Assembly (NCBI GenBank): GCA_021295715.1
Contig: JAGWBV010000057.1
Span: 1 to 32,075, forward strand
Direction: 5' to 3'
DNA: 32,075 nucleotides
Source of the DNA: Candidatus Poribacteria bacterium
GTDB lineage: Bacteria > Poribacteria > WGA-4E > WGA-3G
Below the pieces are notes generated by a model, which was not told the origin of the DNA, searched no databases, and saw nothing but the letters and a program-made list of their open reading frames with translations. This document shows positions 905 through 32,075 of this stretch, in pieces. How positions within the stretch are numbered: the first letter of the stretch is position 1; each line of letters opens with the position of its first letter. The position numbers were made by a program, and so were the translations under genes.

Positions 905-1062
905 TGCGTAAGTCCTGACCCATTCAGAAATATAGTAAAATCCAAAAATATGTTTACAGTTCGTCACGGAACAAACACCCCACCGCCGCTGGCGAGGATT
1001 GTATCCTCGCCCATCTTTGAGTGTATAAGTAATTACGGGTTTTACTATAGTATTACGAAGAA
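905..1062 (+). repeat. Dispersed repeats before hsdM
   Basis: TGCGTAAGTCCTGA (905-918) recurs exactly at 8376-8389. At about 992-1012, GGCGAGGAT and ATCCTCGCC form a perfect 9-bp hairpin, a member of the GTAGG/CTGG-type family seen at 10644, 13475, 14713, 18204 and 21168. It is followed by a GAGTGT...AAGTAATT tail also found after the hairpins at 10644 and 18204. Confidence 0.7.
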
Positions 1063-1072
1063 AAGAGAACGC

Positions 1073-2818
1073 ATGGCAAATTATCAAGAACTGGCAAATC
1101 TGGTTTGGAATGTCGCGGACGATGTGCTCCGCGGATTGTTCAAACCGCACGAATACGGCGACATCACACTCCCGTTTCTGGTGCTCCGCCGATTGGACTG
1201 CATCTTAGACGAGGACGGACGAAAAGAGAACGCCATCAATACATACAATCAGTTTAAAGACAAAGTACCGGAAGATCAACTCCCACCGATTATTCTGAGA
1301 GCGACAGGCACCAGTTTCTACAACACCTCCCAATACGACCTCTCCCGACTGGCAGACGATGCGCACAACATCCGTCTCAATTTTGAGAACTACATCGGAG
1401 GATTCAACCAAGACGTGCGCGACATCATCGAAAACTTCAATCTCGATCGGTTCATTGAGCGGTTGGAGAGAAACAACCGATTGTTCATTTTTTGCGATAA
1501 GTTCACCGAAATCGACCTACACCCGAATCAGGTAGATAATCACACGATGGGACAGGTCTTTGAGGAACTGCTCCGCCGATTCTCGGAGATGTCCAACGAG
1601 ACGAGTGGGGAACACTACACGCCGCGGGATGTCGTGCGATTATTGGTTTCGCTGCTGTTTGCGGAACACCGTGAAGACCTAAGCGGGCAGGGGGTGATCC
1701 GTAGTATCTTCGATCCGTGTTGCGGGACAGGCGGCATGTTGACGATTGGGAAGGAATACTTCCGCGAACAGATTAATCCCGATGCCGATATTCGGTTGTT
1801 GGGTCAGGAGCTGAACGCCCAGACCTACGCCATCTGTAAGTCGGATATGCTCATCACGGGCGAGGATCCCGACAATATTCGACTCGGTTCCAGTCTCTCC
1901 GAGGACCAATTTCAAGTGGAACGTTTCGACTATATGATTACGAATCCGCCTTTCGGTGTGAGTTGGAAATCCGACGAAGCAGCGGTGAAAGCGGAAGCGC
2001 AAACCGCTACCGGTAGGTTCTCAGCGGGGACACCGCGCACCTCAGATGGGGCGTTGCTGTTCCTGCAACACATGCTCTCGAAGATGGAGGACAACGGAAG
2101 TCGGGTGGGAATCGTCTTTAACGGGTCGCCGCTCTTCACGGGGGATGCCGGGAGCGGTGAGAGTGAAATCCGACGATGGATCATCGAAAACGATTGGCTG
2201 GAATGTATCATAGCGATGCCTGAAAAGTTGTTCTTCAACACCGGTATCGCCACGTATATCTGGATCCTAACGAACCAAAAATCGGAAGCGAGACAGGGCA
2301 AGATCCAACTCATCAACGCCGTTGACTTCCACGACGAGATGAAAAGGAATCTCGGAGACAAAAACGCTCTCATTTCCGATAACCATATCCGTCACATCGT
2401 GGAACTCTACACCGATTTTGAAGAGACCGAGCACTCCAAAATCTATCCTAACGAGTTTTTCGGATACACGAAGGTGACGGTTGAGAGACCGCTGATTGAA
2501 ACGCAAGAAATTTTGGGAGAGGAAACGGAGGTCGTTGTTCGGGACAAGGAGGGCAATCCGAAACCGGATACCAAACTGCGAGACGCTGAGCGTGTGCCGC
2601 TCACGGAGGATATTGACGATTACTACCAACGTGAAGTGAAACCGCATGTCCCTGATAGTTGGATAGACAGGAAGAAGGATAAGGTGGGCTACGAAATCAA
2701 CTTCAATCGGTATTTCTACCAGTATACGCCGTTACGCTCACTGAAGGAAATCACGGACGAATTGTTGGCACTGGAGCGGAAAAGTGAAGGCTTGCTAAGT
2801 GAGGTGTTGGAATTATGA
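1073..2818 (+). CDS. hsdM: Type I restriction-modification DNA methyltransferase subunit (HsdM)
   Basis: This is the N6-adenine methyltransferase subunit of a type I restriction system. It transfers a methyl group from S-adenosylmethionine to adenine in the site chosen by HsdS. The N-terminal helical region (LANLVWNVADDVLRG) is typical of HsdM. The SAM-binding motif FDPCCGTGG is at residues 213-221 and the catalytic NPPF at 291-294. The frame remains open upstream to 950, but those codons come from a hairpin repeat; the ATG at 1073 begins the conserved MANYQELANL sequence and gives 581 aa, a normal family length. A weak AGAGAA lies before it. The C-terminal third is charged, as usual for the part that contacts HsdS. 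It is the first gene of the hsd locus; hsdS and hsdR follow on the same strand. Confidence 0.95.
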   Translation: MANYQELANLVWNVADDVLRGLFKPHEYGDITLPFLVLRRLDCILDEDGRKENAINTYNQFKDKVPEDQLPPIILRATGTSFYNTSQYDLSRLADDAHNIRLNFENYIGGFNQDVRDIIENFNLDRFIERLERNNRLFIFCDKFTEIDLHPNQVDNHTMGQVFEELLRRFSEMSNETSGEHYTPRDVVRLLVSLLFAEHREDLSGQGVIRSIFDPCCGTGGMLTIGKEYFREQINPDADIRLLGQELNAQTYAICKSDMLITGEDPDNIRLGSSLSEDQFQVERFDYMITNPPFGVSWKSDEAAVKAEAQTATGRFSAGTPRTSDGALLFLQHMLSKMEDNGSRVGIVFNGSPLFTGDAGSGESEIRRWIIENDWLECIIAMPEKLFFNTGIATYIWILTNQKSEARQGKIQLINAVDFHDEMKRNLGDKNALISDNHIRHIVELYTDFEETEHSKIYPNEFFGYTKVTVERPLIETQEILGEETEVVVRDKEGNPKPDTKLRDAERVPLTEDIDDYYQREVKPHVPDSWIDRKKDKVGYEINFNRYFYQYTPLRSLKEITDELLALERKSEGLLSEVLEL

Positions 2819-2838
2819 GGTGCGGATAGATTCCATTT

Positions 2839-2883
2839 GTCTGAATCGCGGATTTACACGGATTAGACGGATTCGCGCGGATT
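2839..2883 (+). repeat. CGCGGATT-type intergenic repeat
   Basis: This is a run of near-tandem units of the form CGCGGATT / ACGGATT / GCGCGGATT, starting with GTCTGAATCGCGGATTT. The reverse complement of the same family is found at 3455-3488 and 3750-3792, where it forms the 5' coding sequence of hsdS. Confidence 0.7.
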
Positions 2884-2925
2884 ATTGGGTCTGTTCTATT
2901 AGGACCTTGAGAAAGGAAATCGTAA

Positions 2926-3332
2926 ATGAACACGAACCTGAAACATAAAGATATAACGCAAAAGATCATCGGCGCAGCATTTGAAGTCCATAAGTTTTTA
3001 GGAAACGGCTTTCAAGAGGTGGTTTATCAACGGGCGTTGTCGATTGAGATGCGGAAAGCGGGATTGGAGTTTGATAGAGAAATTGAGCAGGACATTTACT
3101 AAAAGATTTTCCAAAGTCTATCGGGAGACGTATAGCAGATTTTGTGATAGCACAGAAAGTGTTGGTAGAACTGAAAGCAATTAGCGCATTGGAAAATGTC
3201 CATGAAGTCCAGACATTAAATTATTTGAAGGCGTATCGATTAGAAGTCGCCTTATTAATCAATTTCGGTGAGAAAAGTTTAAAATATAAGAGACTGATTC
3301 TATCACAACACAATGCCGTTCCTCGTAATTGA
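2926..3332 (+). pseudogene. GxxExxY protein (PDDEXK_3 nuclease-like), frameshifted
   Basis: The product belongs to the GxxExxY family, small proteins with a PD-(D/E)XK nuclease-like fold and unknown cellular role. The first frame starts at ATG 2926 after GAGAAAGGAAA and encodes the typical GAAFEVHKFLGNGFQEVVYQ segment, but stops at 3100-3102. The rest of the family sequence continues in another frame to 3332: IADFVIAQ, then VLVELKA, then LNYLKAYRLEVALLINFG. Restoring one missing base near 3100 rejoins both halves and gives about 135 aa. The putative catalytic D and ExK lie in the second half, so neither fragment alone has the full domain. It sits between hsdM and hsdS. The frameshift could be real decay or a sequencing error in the TACTAAAAG stretch. 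Confidence 0.85.
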
Positions 3333-3734
3333 AAGTGTATTCATGGGCATTCGTCTGATCTTACCGTTTCTCCAAATCTGATATTGATATTCTAAAAACA
3401 CTAAATAAAAACCGCAGTTCGACATGAAAGTGAAGTTGACATGAGCGATAACAAAATCCGCGAAATCCGCAGAATCCGCGATTCAGACATTATCCCGAAT
3501 ATAAAGAGAGCGGCGTAGAGTGGATTGGCGAAATACTAAGTCATTTTTAGGTATTAGCGTTCCAAACTTTGTATCTGTAATTGGGTTGGAAAGTTGGACG
3601 ATGGCAGTTTGGAAGGTAGGAAGCACAGCGTTTCTCCCAGTCTTCCCGCTTCTTCACGCTTGCTCCAAATCTGATATTGGTATTCTAAAAACACTAAATA
3701 AAAACCGCAGTTCAGACATGAAAGTGAAGTTGAC
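3333..3734. other. Gap between the GxxExxY remnant and hsdS
   Basis: The gap contains the truncated hsdS 5' copy (3370-3546), about 115 bases of unexplained sequence (3547-3662), and the second copy of the repeated leader. I see no intact gene. The open frame 3520-3738 crosses unrelated pieces and merely ends on the ATGA of hsdS. Confidence 0.6.
3370..3546 (+). pseudogene. Duplicated 5' fragment of hsdS
   Basis: This stretch is a direct repeat of 3663-3844, which holds the leader and first codons of the intact hsdS. It starts at TCCAAATCTGATATTG, includes an ATGAGCGATA start at 3441, and ends after GTAGAGTGGATTGGCGAAATAC, split here as GTAGAGTGGATTGG and CGAAATAC, where similarity fades. A 10-base difference inside the CGCGGATT-type repeat puts this copy out of frame, so it stops after about 25 codons. 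It is a remnant and cannot encode a specificity domain. Confidence 0.8.
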
Positions 3735-5042
3735 ATGAGCGATAGCATCATCCGCGAAATCCGCAGAATCCGCGCAAATCCGCGATTCAGACATTATCCC
3801 GAATACAAAGAGAGCGGTGTAGAGTGGGTTGGCGAAATACCAAAGCATTGGAAAATAGTCAGAGGCAAGTTTATATTAACTAATAAAAAGGAAATAAACT
3901 CTGATTTCCAATGTGACAATCTACTCTCGCTTACTCTAAACGGTGTCTTGAGAAAAGATATGGATTCAACTGAGGGACTTAGACCAGATAATTATAGAAC
4001 TTATCAGGTTTTCTACCCGGATGATCTTGTTTTTAAGTTAATTGATTTGGAAAACATTCAAACGAGTAGGGTGGGTATAGTTCCTGAAAAAGGTATTATG
4101 AGTCCTGTTTATATCAGACTTGAGAGTGAAAGTGATTTATATGAAAGGTATTATTTCTATCAGTATTATGATTTATATAAGAAGCACATTTTCAATTTTT
4201 TGGGAAAAGGTGTCCGTTCCTCACTGAGTCCATCGGATTTGTTAGAGATACCGTTGGCTTTCCCACCACTCTCTGAACAAACCCAAATCGCCAACTTCCT
4301 TGACCGCAAGACCGAACAGATTGACGAACTTATCCGCATCAAAGAACGACGGATAGAACTGCTCCAGGAACAACGCACCGCGCTCATAAATCAGGCAGTG
4401 ACGAAGGGACTTGACCCGACTGTAGAGATGAAACCGTCGGGCGTGGAGTGGATTGGGGAGATACCAGCGCATTGGGAAGTAAAGAAAATTAAATATGTCG
4501 CAACTTTCATAAGTGAAAAATCCATGCCTGAGACAGATGCCATAAGAATTTCACCTGAAAATGTTGAATCGAAAACCGGTAAAGTCCTTAATTTTTTCAG
4601 TTCCTATGATTCAAACGGTGTGAAATTTCAAGTTGGGGATGTGCTATTCAACAAAATTCGCGTCTATCTCAACAAGGTGGTTTATGCAGAATATGATGGC
4701 TATTCTCTCGGTGAAATGATAATCATAAGACCTTCTTTACAAGATATTGGTAAATACCTCTTTTACCTGATGCTATCCAGTCGGTTCATTGAATACTGCG
4801 ATTCTATATCCAGGGGCGCGAAGATGCCACGAACAGACGTTTATGATATTCTGAACGCACAAGTACCCATTACGTCACATCAAGAACAAACCCAAATTGT
4901 TGACTTCCTTGATCGCAAAACCCAGCAGGTTAACGAACTGATAGCAACAGGACATCGAAAAATCCAACTCCTGCAGGAATACCGTCAGTCCCTTATCTCC
5001 GAAGCGGTGACCGGCAAGATAGATGTCCGAAACGAGGTGTAG
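3735..5042 (+). CDS. hsdS: Type I restriction-modification specificity subunit (HsdS)
   Basis: HsdS recognises the bipartite DNA target and holds HsdM and HsdR together. The 435-residue protein has the classic pseudo-duplicated layout. A YKESGVEWVGEIPKHW block (24-39) opens the first target recognition domain, which is followed by a helical spacer with FLDRKTEQIDEL (188-199). The related MKPSGVEWIGEIPAHW block (232-247) opens the second recognition domain, and a second spacer has FLDRKTQQVNEL. Residues 1-19 are unusual: they are encoded by the CGCGGATT-type intergenic repeat (3750-3792), so the N-terminus is longer than the usual start just before HYPEYK. No strong ribosome binding site is visible before ATG 3735. 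hsdR follows 4 bases after the stop. Confidence 0.93.
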   Translation: MSDSIIREIRRIRANPRFRHYPEYKESGVEWVGEIPKHWKIVRGKFILTNKKEINSDFQCDNLLSLTLNGVLRKDMDSTEGLRPDNYRTYQVFYPDDLVFKLIDLENIQTSRVGIVPEKGIMSPVYIRLESESDLYERYYFYQYYDLYKKHIFNFLGKGVRSSLSPSDLLEIPLAFPPLSEQTQIANFLDRKTEQIDELIRIKERRIELLQEQRTALINQAVTKGLDPTVEMKPSGVEWIGEIPAHWEVKKIKYVATFISEKSMPETDAIRISPENVESKTGKVLNFFSSYDSNGVKFQVGDVLFNKIRVYLNKVVYAEYDGYSLGEMIIIRPSLQDIGKYLFYLMLSSRFIEYCDSISRGAKMPRTDVYDILNAQVPITSHQEQTQIVDFLDRKTQQVNELIATGHRKIQLLQEYRQSLISEAVTGKIDVRNEV

Positions 5043-5046
5043 ACCG

Positions 5047-7998
5047 ATGCCGACGTATACAGAACAGAACTTTGAAGACCACATCGAACAGCACCTGAAC
5101 CAGTCGGAATACCGGTCATTACAATCTACTGACTACGATAAATCCCTCTGCCTGATCCACGATGAGGTTCTTCAATTTATTCAGGACACGCAACCGGACG
5201 TATATCAGCGACTGGAACGCCAATACGGTGCCGATACACCGCAGAAACTCCTCGACCGTCTGAGCAGACAGGTTGCGAGTCGCGGCGTGCTGGACGTGTT
5301 GCGGAAAGGGTTTAAAGATAGAGGTTGTGATTTTAAGCTGACCTACTTCCGTCCGTCAAGCGGTATGAACCCCGACCATCAACGGCTCTACGAGCAGAAC
5401 CGATTCTCCCTCATCCGACAACTACATTACTCGCAGCGGAACGAGAAATCGCTGGATATGACTTTGTTCCTCAACGGGTTGCCACTGGTGACGATGGAAC
5501 TCAAGAACAGTCTCACCGGTCAGGTTTTCACGGATGCAGAAAAGCAGTATCGGACGGATCGGGATCCGAGGGAACCGTTGTTCCAATTCAAGCGGTGTCT
5601 GGTGCATTTCGCCGTGGGCAACGAGAAGGTCTCCATGACGACCCACTTGCGAGCGGACAAGACGCGGTTCTTTCCGTTCAATAAGGGCATCGAAAACCCC
5701 GTGAACCCGAACGGACACAAAACCGCCTATCTGTGGGAGGACATCCTACAGCCCGATAACCTGATGGAGTTAATCGACAACTTCATCCATGAGCAGGAGA
5801 CCACAGAGAAGGTCTACGATCCCAGAATTGACGCGGTGAGAGATGTGAAGAGTCGCGTGCTCGTTTTCCCGCGCTACCATCAGCTCGACGTGATTCGTAA
5901 ATTGCAAAAGGCAATCGTGGAGGAAGACGTTGGGCACAACTACCTCATCCAACACACCACCGGTAGCGGGAAATCGAACTCCATCGCGTGGTTGGCGCAT
6001 CTGCTGACACATCTTTTCAGCTCTGAAACCGATACGAATCGGATCTTCGACTCCATCATCGTCGTGACAGATCGGCGTATCCTCGATAAGCAGCTGCAGG
6101 ATACCATCAAGCAGGTGGAGCAGGTTGAGGGTGTGGTGCATGCCGTTGAGAAGACGTCAGCACAACTCAGAGAATTCCTTGAATCCGGCAAGGACATCAT
6201 CATCTCGACGATTCAGAAGTTCAGTGTGATTGCCGAGGAGATTGGCAAACTTAAAAGCAAGCACTTCGCCGTGATTATTGACGAGGCGCACTCCTCGCAG
6301 AGCGGTGAATCCGCAAGGAATCTCAGGCTTTCACTCTCGCAAGGGATTGCGTTAGGCGTAACGGAGGATTATGCTGATGAGGTATCCGATATGGACGCTC
6401 GGATCCTTAAGGAGATGGAGATGCGCAGAATGCAGGATCATATCTCCTATTTCGGTTTCAGCGGCACACCGAAGAACAAAACCTTAGAACTCTTCGGTCG
6501 GAAGGACGATGAAGGCAACTTTCTCCCGTTCCACGTCTATTCCATGCGGCAGAGCATCAGCGAAGGCTTTACGCTCGACGTGCTACAGAACTACACCACC
6601 TTTAAGAGATACTTTGAACTCGTCAAAAGTGTCCCGGAGGATAAAGAATACGAGAAGGCGCGGACGCTTCGGAAGCTCACCAATTACGTTGACCTACAGC
6701 ACCACAGCATTGAGACGAAGGCCCGGATTATCCTTGAACACTTCACGGAACGCACCGCTAAGACGATTGAGGGCAAAGGGCGGGCGATGTTGGTTACGCC
6801 GTCCCGACTTCACTGCGTCAGATATAAACTGGAATTCGATAGACAGATGAAAGAGATGGGGCTTCCCTACGGGTGTCTCGTAGCCTTCAGCGACACGGTG
6901 CACGACACCGATAACGGGCAGGACTACACCGAAAACGGGATGAATGCGTTACCCCCAAGCGTCTCCATTGCGGATAGTTTCAAGAGTCCTGAGTATCGGA
7001 TCCTGATTGTGTCAAATAAGTTCCAAACGGGTTTCGATGAACCGCTCCTACAGACGATGTATGTCGATAAGCGGTTGGACGGGCTGCAATGTGTTCAGAC
7101 CTTGAGCCGTCTGAACCGCGTCACCACCGGTAAAACCGACACGCTGGTGCTCGACTTTGTGAATGAACCCGATCAAATACAGGAAGCGTTTCAGCAATAC
7201 TATCAGACCACGATACTCGCCGAGGAGACCGACCCGAATCGGCTGTATGACCTACAGAGCGAGTTGGAGGGGTTTGACCTCTACGATGACGGAACCATTG
7301 ATGAATTCTGTCTTATCTTCTATGACTCGGATCAATCCGACGAACTTCTGCAAGGCGTTCTCGATGGCGTTGTTGAGCGGTGGAGTGAGCTTAAAACAGA
7401 GGACGGGGAGCAGTTTCGTTCTACCTTGCAGAGTTATATTCGGCTCTACGGATACATCTCGCAGTTGATTACCTTCACCGATGTAGCGTTAGAGAAATTG
7501 TATATCTTCAGTCACAGTCTCAACAAGAAGCTGCCGAGACGGGAACACTCCGATCTACAAGGTCTCCTTGCGTCTGTGGACTTGGATTCATTCCGTGTGC
7601 AAAAAACGCATGAGAGTCTACACCTCTCCCTTGAGGAGAGTGATAGCGAGGTCGAAGGGATCGGTAGCGATGTCGCACCCCGTAGGGAACCTGAGCAGGA
7701 TTTCCTCTCCAATATTCTTGACGCGTTGAACAGTGCCTATCAGACGGATTTCACATCGGAAGATAAGGTTGACATTGAGAACGTCTACCAGAAGGTTCGT
7801 CAGCACACGGAACTGCGACAGGTCATCGCGGGAGATAATACGGAGACCAACAAACGGTATAAGTTTGATCAGGTGATTGATGAGATTTTATTGGATTTCG
7901 TCAATAACAAGTTGGAACTCTACACGAAATTGTCGAAACCTGAGATTAACGCGAATCTCAAGCGTCAACTCTATCAGGCGTATCTTGCACAACCCTAA
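5047..7998 (+). CDS. hsdR: Type I restriction endonuclease subunit (HsdR)
   Basis: HsdR translocates DNA using ATP and cuts it at a distance when the HsdS site is unmethylated. The N-terminal nuclease domain shows D137 and E151-x-K153 in a PD-(D/E)XK arrangement (TMELKNSLTG). The helicase motor follows, with Walker A TTGSGKS (304-310, K309), DEAH (412-415) and a later FSGTPKN motif. A QTLSRLNR motif lies in the second RecA-like domain, and a helical C-terminus completes 983 aa, close to the family norm. The frame is open from 5023, inside hsdS, but ATG 5047 has GAGGTG at a good distance (5034-5039) and begins the usual sequence. No inactivating change is visible, so the restriction activity may be intact. 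Confidence 0.95.
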   Translation: MPTYTEQNFEDHIEQHLNQSEYRSLQSTDYDKSLCLIHDEVLQFIQDTQPDVYQRLERQYGADTPQKLLDRLSRQVASRGVLDVLRKGFKDRGCDFKLTYFRPSSGMNPDHQRLYEQNRFSLIRQLHYSQRNEKSLDMTLFLNGLPLVTMELKNSLTGQVFTDAEKQYRTDRDPREPLFQFKRCLVHFAVGNEKVSMTTHLRADKTRFFPFNKGIENPVNPNGHKTAYLWEDILQPDNLMELIDNFIHEQETTEKVYDPRIDAVRDVKSRVLVFPRYHQLDVIRKLQKAIVEEDVGHNYLIQHTTGSGKSNSIAWLAHLLTHLFSSETDTNRIFDSIIVVTDRRILDKQLQDTIKQVEQVEGVVHAVEKTSAQLREFLESGKDIIISTIQKFSVIAEEIGKLKSKHFAVIIDEAHSSQSGESARNLRLSLSQGIALGVTEDYADEVSDMDARILKEMEMRRMQDHISYFGFSGTPKNKTLELFGRKDDEGNFLPFHVYSMRQSISEGFTLDVLQNYTTFKRYFELVKSVPEDKEYEKARTLRKLTNYVDLQHHSIETKARIILEHFTERTAKTIEGKGRAMLVTPSRLHCVRYKLEFDRQMKEMGLPYGCLVAFSDTVHDTDNGQDYTENGMNALPPSVSIADSFKSPEYRILIVSNKFQTGFDEPLLQTMYVDKRLDGLQCVQTLSRLNRVTTGKTDTLVLDFVNEPDQIQEAFQQYYQTTILAEETDPNRLYDLQSELEGFDLYDDGTIDEFCLIFYDSDQSDELLQGVLDGVVERWSELKTEDGEQFRSTLQSYIRLYGYISQLITFTDVALEKLYIFSHSLNKKLPRREHSDLQGLLASVDLDSFRVQKTHESLHLSLEESDSEVEGIGSDVAPRREPEQDFLSNILDALNSAYQTDFTSEDKVDIENVYQKVRQHTELRQVIAGDNTETNKRYKFDQVIDEILLDFVNNKLELYTKLSKPEINANLKRQLYQAYLAQP

Positions 7999-31678: not shown

Positions 31679-31759
31679 GTTTGAATGATACTGCCTCAGA
31701 AACTTTAGGCGAAATAGTGATAAAAAACCGCACAAAGTTGGGCATTCTTTATCAAAATT

Positions 31760-31803
31760 CGGTGTCAAAACCCCGTTGCTTTAGCTGGGGGATGTAGACA
31801 CCG
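31760..31803 (+). repeat. Stem-loop resembling an IS200/IS605-type end
   Basis: CGGTGTC (31760-31766) pairs with GACACCG (31797-31803). Inside is CCCC, GTTGCTTTAGCT, GGGG, a pattern similar to the GGCTTTAGCC-type hairpins at ends of IS605-family elements. No tnpA is visible nearby. Confidence 0.5.
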
Positions 31804-31840
31804 CCCTATTGAATTAGACCAAACCTTTGCTTAAAAAGAT

Positions 31841-31869
31841 TTGACAAATGTCTAAAATTATGGTAGGGT
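31841..31869 (+). promoter_or_regulatory. Promoter of structured leader and tnpB
   Basis: TTGACA (31841-31846) is perfect and TAGGGT (31864-31869) is weaker, with 17 bases between them. Transcription would begin near 31875-31877, at the first base pairs of the folded leader. Confidence 0.55.
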
Positions 31870-31874
31870 TAATA

Positions 31875-31959
31875 GTATCAGGTTGGCAAGCTTTACAAGC
31901 GTAACCGCAAGGTTGCGGGCTTGCCTCGCACTTGTAAGGGGATAAATGCCTGATACCTG
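31875..31959 (+). ncRNA. Structured leader RNA with pseudoknot potential
   Basis: Outer stem GTATCAGG (31875-31882) with CCTGATAC (31949-31956); inner stem GGCAAGC (31885-31891) with GCTTGCC (31919-31925); apical stem CGTAACC with GGTTGCG closed by a GCAA tetraloop (31900-31917). TTACAAG (31893-31899) can pair with CTTGTAA (31931-31937), crossing the inner stem as a pseudoknot. AAGGGG at 31936-31941 precedes a micro-ORF, ATG to TGA (31945-31959), encoding MPDT. Confidence 0.6.
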
Positions 31960-31966
31960 ACATTCC

Positions 31967-32075
31967 ATGCGAAATACGACTCATAAACTTTTCAACGATA
32001 AGACGTTGCGCCACTTGCACGATGATTTGAATATCATTGGTGTTGTGCGTAATCATTTTTTGGCGATCTCTATGC
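31967..32075 (+). CDS. tnpB: TnpB/IS605 OrfB-like protein, 5' end only
   Basis: The gene runs off the window; only 36 codons are visible. The sequence HKLFNDKTLRHLHDDLNIIG followed by VVRNHFLAIS resembles the start of IS200/IS605-family TnpB proteins, RNA-guided nucleases whose genes spread with these elements. The ATG at 31967 is the first possible start, because an in-frame TGA lies just upstream. There is no clear ribosome binding site of its own; the micro-ORF ending at 31959 could couple translation. The catalytic RuvC residues lie outside the window, so activity cannot be judged. Confidence 0.6.
   Translation, partial: MRNTTHKLFNDKTLRHLHDDLNIIGVVRNHFLAISM

Follow-up and report, generated by a model that had tools for sequence, protein, structure and literature searches.

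Does the stretch between the promoter and the start codon of a Poribacterial tnpB gene encode a structured RNA, and what would such an RNA do for the gene? The question is raised by contig C57 (JAGWBV010000057.1) in the genome of a member of Candidatus Poribacteria, bacteria that live as sponge symbionts; a tnpB leader is located at one end of this contig, near the 3' end of the 32,075-nt stretch of DNA that was analysed as a whole (referred to here as the window). An earlier note on this DNA had read from its letters a promoter, a leader RNA able to form a pseudoknot and a micro-ORF in front of tnpB, and had proposed that folding could switch translation. Our analysis supports the promoter-driven pseudoknotted leader, and a role of this leader in switching translation is plausible. 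The micro-ORF did not hold up.

The tnpB leader of the window

The tnpB reading frame exits C57, the terminal 79 bp of which are exactly the start of contig C67. C67 supplies the remainder, giving a full TnpB of 383 aa. Pfam identifies the ORF 3' of the leader as TnpB (PF07282, E 2e-19; PF01385, E 4e-11). The left terminus of the surrounding element was placed by homology: a close relative has two identical copies (L154/L155), and their boundary marks the terminus. The two copies delimit a 1470-bp element that contains only tnpB, with a hairpin near each end. In the element of the window the right-end hairpin is found on C67 and is of the same kind as the left-end hairpin. With a subterminal hairpin at either end and a gene of the tnpB type, the element belongs to the IS200/IS605 superfamily. 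The 1470 bp leave no room for the Y1 transposase gene tnpA in addition to tnpB; membership in this superfamily does not require tnpA, and many members have tnpB alone. At the other end of the window, positions 950-7998 hold Type I restriction-modification genes (methylase, specificity and helicase subunits, recognised by eye).

Table 1. Features of the tnpB leader and its surroundings in the window
Feature	Position	Strand	Basis or remark
IS200/IS605-type element, left end	31753..31790	+	terminus ~31753 after TTTAT; hairpin ccccgttgctttagctgggg 31771-31790
Promoter	31841..31869	+	TTGACA 31841-31846, 17-nt spacer, -10 31864-31869 (TAGGGT)
Leader RNA	31875..31966	+	covariance model match 95 bits; alignments A1, A2
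P1 5' strand, two alternative partners	31875..31883	+	covaries with copy 1 and copy 2
P1	31875-31882 with 31949-31956	+	pairing read off the sequence
P2	31885-31891 with 31919-31925	+	encloses crossing arm and P3 hairpin
Pseudoknot (crossing helix)	31893-31899 with 31931-31937	+	pairing and covariation
P3 hairpin	31900-31906 with 31911-31917	+	GCAA loop 31907-31910
P4	31926-31929 with 31939-31942	+	one mismatch in window copy
AAGGGG	31936-31941	+	sequence
Micro-ORF ATG CCT GAT ACC TGA	31945-31959	+	sequence
P1 3' strand copy 1, CCTGATAC	31949..31956	+	covariation, sequence
P1 3' strand copy 2, ACCTGACA	31955..31962	+	4 nt before tnpB ATG
tnpB start, cut by contig end	31967..32075	+	ATG 31967; C67 overlap, Pfam

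The three nested stems, the GCAA tetraloop and the crossing 7-bp pairing are all located where the earlier note had placed them. The leader fold is real and is larger than first described: P4 and a second copy of the P1 3' strand (31955-31962) had been missed. The loop of P4 bears the 3' arm of the pseudoknot, and the P4 region (31926..31942) takes in most of the AAGGGG.

Conservation and covariation of the fold

In single-sequence fold prediction the window leader folds better than 200 of 200 shuffles (z = -3.1). The genome itself contains 38 OrfB_IS605 matches, many of them with the same leader in front, and 12 of its leaders, which align with few gaps, were used as comparative set. Conservation of the pairings in homologous tnpB leaders had been named in advance as the test of the fold, and it was passed: at the 35 proposed pairs of P1, P2, P3, P4 and the crossing helix, standard pairs account for 97.9% of 390 cells, with compensatory changes in every long helix. 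Two-sided changes occur in 56 cells at 16 pairs, compared to 17 cells in shuffles, none of 500 being as high. When the partner strands were slid, pairing fell to ~40%. P2 and P3 are 100% paired and carry two-sided changes, while the crossing helix is 98.8% paired with two-sided changes in five of its seven pairs. The strands of P4, a short helix, co-vary across copies (ACCC/GGGT, TCCC/GGGA, ACCG/CGGT, ACCA/TGGT).

The crossing-helix pairs were also top-ranked in an unsupervised APC-corrected covariation scan of 93 distinct leaders, taken from the genus as well as from its relatives, which had been aligned by a model that did not contain this helix. The shuffle controls leave the relatedness among leaders in place, so that the fold draws its support from the slid controls, from the unsupervised ranking and from a subtype that is independent (see below). 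Within P3, G-U outnumbers A-C mismatches 59 to 1, which argues that the transcribed sense strand is the strand that folds.

Promoter, start codon and Shine-Dalgarno motifs

Upstream of the leaders we found the consensus TTGACA, 17-18 nt, TATAAT. Most distinct upstream regions (76 of 94) match 11-12 of the 12 consensus bases, the spacer being 17 nt in 71 and 18 nt in 21 of the 94. The TTGACA and 17-base spacer proposed for the window are thus present and recur as a consensus in other copies, but the -10 of the window itself (TAGGGT) is degenerate, most copies reading TATAAT. Exactly 4 nt separate the -10 from leader position 1 in 75 of 94 cases, and this fixed gap puts the predicted transcription start inside the P1 5' strand. 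At its other end the leader runs directly up to the ATG, with few exceptions among 98 cases.

A Shine-Dalgarno motif between -16 and -8 was found in 0 of 53 distinct tnpBs that carry the RNA. Among 19 genes of the window, for which the starts were chosen by us, 11 have one. A role of the AGGGG as ribosome-binding site of tnpB is not supported: its distance from the ATG downstream is 26–31 nt, and it takes part in P4. A family of small membrane proteins, some of which carry the leader, allows a comparison of members with and without the RNA. A Shine-Dalgarno motif near the ATG is missing in six of seven members with RNA, the exception being L183 (RNA plus GAGG at -10), and is present in 15 of 17 members without RNA, typically as AAAAGGAG at -11 to -13. 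At locus L226, where the crossing pairing and P1 are lost, GGAG stands before the ATG. The leader thus seems to stand in for a normal ribosome-binding site. The tnpBs of sister Poribacteria likewise have no Shine-Dalgarno motif, and a recognisable diverged leader is found in only part of them; because several bear such a leader, they were unusable as RNA-free controls.

One 5' strand with two tandem partners

The P1 3' strand is present twice between P4 and the ATG, the two copies usually being 7 nt apart and matching each other in sequence. Across the 93 leaders both copies covary with the P1 5' strand, the covarying positions being 6-8 with 76-78 and 6-8 with 83-85. Of 88 distinct leaders, 81 contain two separate stretches that are complementary to their own 5' strand; when 5' strands were dealt randomly among leaders, the count averaged 28 with a maximum of 41. 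Pairing with copy 1 and pairing with copy 2 are mutually exclusive. In energies computed without the pseudoknot the two states are near-equal on average (P1alt minus P1 = 0.4 +/- 3.4 kcal/mol; 49 leaders favour one, 39 the other), single leaders differing by several kcal/mol; the window copy prefers P1 with copy 1 by ~6 kcal/mol. More distant leaders (for example L241, L250, L159) may vary in copy spacing and keep two copies, and in L159 one copy includes the tnpB ATG itself. We also observed reduced leaders (L020, L239, L250, L255) in which the loop of the P2 hairpin seemingly kisses the P4 loop directly, without P3. L250 and L255 have a duplicated P1 3' strand 10 nt apart.

A closing strand with two tandem partners suggests a translation switch. 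We consider it rather probable that the tnpB 5' UTR represents an undescribed cis-acting leader class of Poribacteria, which replaces the Shine-Dalgarno motif and in which the choice of P1 copy would set TnpB translation. The leader would act as an initiation module that works without Shine-Dalgarno pairing and chooses between two P1 registers. P1 would enclose P2-P3 and the small P4, the loop of P4 kissing the bulge between P2 and P3, while the 5'-terminal strand would have two possible partners, copy 1 at ~11-18 nt and copy 2 at ~5-12 nt ahead of the AUG. Copy 2 would coincide with the ribosome docking region, and pairing there would block the ribosome. Pairing with copy 1, further upstream, would leave more of the start region open, and the choice of copy would in this way set the level of TnpB translation. 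Such a choice might be triggered by a ligand, a protein, temperature or folding kinetics. What was observed computationally is the fold, the competition of two partners for one strand, the placement of the leader at the start codon, the lack of a Shine-Dalgarno motif and the spread to unrelated genes; that the leader controls translation, and in which direction it switches, is what we infer. The leader may instead regulate transcription or RNA stability.

An unlikely, though the most probable, alternative is a constitutive translation-initiation or mRNA-stabilising element. It would shield the 5' end and bring in ribosomes with neither a Shine-Dalgarno motif nor any switching. The missing Shine-Dalgarno motifs of RNA-bearing genes and the diversity of the genes served agree with such an element, but it leaves unexplained why both P1 3' copies stay complementary to one 5' strand. 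Coupling through a mini-ORF is considerably less probable. Here ribosomes bound to the AGGGG would initiate eight nt further downstream, at an NTG in copy 1, terminate at a TGA that overlaps the ATG and re-initiate on tnpB. The AGGGG is conserved and in 57 of 79 leaders the NTG reads to the TGA in ATGA. However, P1 pairing imposes the NTG, the TGA overlap needs only an A after the ATG and is missing in the MRNT family, which includes the window, and AGGGG is changed to AGCGG in some leaders. The ATG micro-ORF of the earlier note is itself peculiar to the window copy: copy 1 contains an ATG in only 4 of 93 leaders, and the other copies inspected have no ATG at the position of the window's ATG. 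The choice between two P1 partners is the preferred reading.

Comparison with known RNAs

A covariance search against all 4227 Rfam families, including HDV, HEARO, IS605-orfB-I and riboswitches, had been proposed as a check. It gave no match with E<=10 at 31700-32075. No gathering-level match was found in the window, and at ten related loci no match fell on a leader. Searches of the open-licence literature returned nothing for Poribacteria combined with TnpB, and for Poribacteria combined with riboswitch only the genome report of another phylum. Since there is neither an Rfam match nor a literature report, we filed the leader as a putative undescribed RNA class within the cis-regulatory leader RNAs.

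Structured leaders that control translation are known from other insertion sequences. In the 5' UTR of the Salmonella IS200 tnpA a stem limits translation (PMC12594629). This leader resembles ours as a structured translation-controlling leader of the same element superfamily, but it is a single stem-loop that hides the ribosome-binding site, has neither a pseudoknot nor a tandem P1 partner and precedes tnpA. In ISPpu9 a long folded 5' UTR limits translation of the transposase tnp and is opened by an antisense RNA (PMC8450116); the likeness is that of a long folded leader, in a different IS with no architecture in common. Both are analogues of the Poribacterial leader, not relatives. The guide RNA of TnpB (omega RNA or reRNA) is likewise structured and comes from the same element. 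It is found at the 3' end of tnpB, its guide lying beyond the right end. The Poribacterial leader is a 5' UTR between promoter and ATG and thus distinct from it, as had been anticipated. A structured RNA tied by name to IS605 orfB/tnpB is IS605-orfB-I (RF03065, 214 positions; PMC11701678). That the leader is one of these motifs, a question left open by the earlier note, finds no support as far as it can be tested: the window leader has no match, and RF03065 gave 0 matches in its own genome and also 0 in 14 control genomes.

preQ1 riboswitches are pseudoknotted translational riboswitches (PMC11625349) and share with the leader a compact pseudoknot near a bacterial start codon. They work by a hidden Shine-Dalgarno sequence; the Poribacterial leader has competing P1 partners, no family match and no known ligand. 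Measured against riboswitches as conserved structured leaders of related genes, it is conserved and structured, yet the genes it serves are diverse.

The order of P2, crossing arm and P3 resembles that of P1, P2 and P3 in HDV-like ribozymes, and a self-cleaving ribozyme of this kind would trim the tnpB transcript. We regard this as very improbable. The likeness is one of strand order alone, as the earlier note had suspected: only 5 nt (31926-31930) are available between the strands corresponding to those that flank HDV P4 and the catalytic J4/2 strand, these 5 nt are used in the leader's own P4, the leader's P1 and closing P4 have no HDV counterpart, and no Rfam ribozyme matched.

Distribution and exchange between tnpB families

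Leaders were searched for in Poribacteria genomes, in some ten tnpB loci of other origin and, by pattern scan, in IMG/VR. With the covariance model (E<=1) the genome of the window contains 34 leader copies. The leader is present in each of the 38 genus genomes searched and frequently reaches dozens of copies; apart from the window's own genome, the count per same-genus genome examined ranges from 2 to 49. In the rest of the family its presence is patchy, another family of the same order has a few copies, and the model found none in the 12 more distant genomes. In four genomes a leader was detected by the model upstream of 57 of 69 TnpB domains.

Leaders more than 90% identical precede TnpBs that share only 22-36% identity. 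Leaders from one TnpB cluster are on average 77% identical, leaders from different clusters 76%. Sequence similarity between loci ends near the ATG. Near-identical leaders on divergent TnpBs and this end of similarity indicate that the 5' part has been exchanged between tnpB families. At L131 (2054-2148) a second leader directly adjoins the right end of another tnpB element. At L241 we noticed a below-threshold group I intron match on the minus strand (2597-3342; 31 bits, E 2e-4), which directly adjoins a partial tmRNA match (E 1e-7); an ORF there resembles a LAGLIDADG endonuclease by eye, and a tnpB with a diverged leader is located just downstream.

Phage and plasmid records gave no BLASTN match to the window leader. 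A rough architecture scan found no convincing leader in front of nine viral tnpBs; the scan is insensitive and misses the window copy, owing to its P4 mismatch, as well as some true members. Of eleven plasmid, phage and viral-contig tnpB loci, model R2 matched only one IMG/VR contig, with a Poribacteria-type tnpB. This 54-kb contig (IMGVR_UViG_3300033059_000057; L181, L182, L278) is classed as viral and has several leader copies, one before an ORF with DGTHHFL repeats. Its tnpB is 86% identical to a Poribacterial one, and it may be a Poribacteria phage or mis-sorted host DNA.

Leaders in front of genes other than tnpB

In four genomes 21 of 78 leaders have no OrfB_IS605 domain nearby. Among the 20 of these that were inspected, 8 precede broken or contig-cut tnpBs and 12 precede sequences not recognisable as tnpB. 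The leader ends at or within a few nt of the ATG in members of the small secreted coiled-coil membrane-protein family, in L303 (a 91-aa coiled-coil membrane protein), in L317 (a GIY-YIG-like protein by eye, with no Pfam match) and in L319 (an 86-aa protein). In L315 it is located upstream of an N6/N4 DNA methylase gene starting ~16 nt downstream, and in L101 upstream of a GIY-YIG/NUMOD3 endonuclease gene. L101 (1501-2560) shows the leader, then an apparent remnant tnpB start with ATA for ATG, then the endonuclease gene. No clear ORF follows the leader in L306, L316 and L320. The membrane-protein family (L183-L212) is widespread, with many paralogues per Poribacterial genome, of which only some members carry the leader; it has no confident Pfam match.

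A distinct subtype (AACCAGTTTGGGTGGCAC...) precedes other genes and has the same architecture with covariation of its own: 94.8% of its cells are paired, and there are 31 two-sided changes compared to 9.7 in shuffles.

Since the leaders ignore TnpB clusters and also precede other genes, a TnpB-specific function was rejected. Autoregulation, in which TnpB or its guide RNA would bind the leader, is one of the least probable alternatives. Most copies do precede tnpB, but near-identical leaders stand before highly divergent TnpBs and before genes other than tnpB, and the right-end TATCAC is constant wherever recovered while P1 varies. For the same reason we rejected a pairing of P1 with the right-end TATCAC, that is, a trans interaction with the guide RNA. 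A transposon DNA signal folded in single-stranded transposition intermediates is the least probable alternative: the leader does lie inside an IS200/IS605-type element and single-stranded DNA tolerates G-T, but its register is fixed to promoter and start codon, it also occurs before genes without visible element ends, and the element has end hairpins of its own.

Implications for Poribacteria

The choice between two P1 partners may extend beyond tnpB. Somewhat more tentatively than for tnpB itself, we propose a new portable class of regulatory RNA: a pseudoknotted start-codon module in place of the Shine-Dalgarno motif, whose 5' strand would switch between two tandem sites and which would be exchanged between divergent tnpB families, serving tnpB, homing-type endonucleases, a DNA methylase and small membrane proteins. 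The pairings of the leader yield precise, testable predictions. If the switch is true, one 5' strand would choose between two tandem partners in the absence of a Shine-Dalgarno motif, whereas the usual design hides the Shine-Dalgarno motif. How tnpB is restrained in its native host is little studied, and the leader described here is common to hundreds of tnpB genes. Its presence on unrelated genes as well suggests that they may respond to a common signal.
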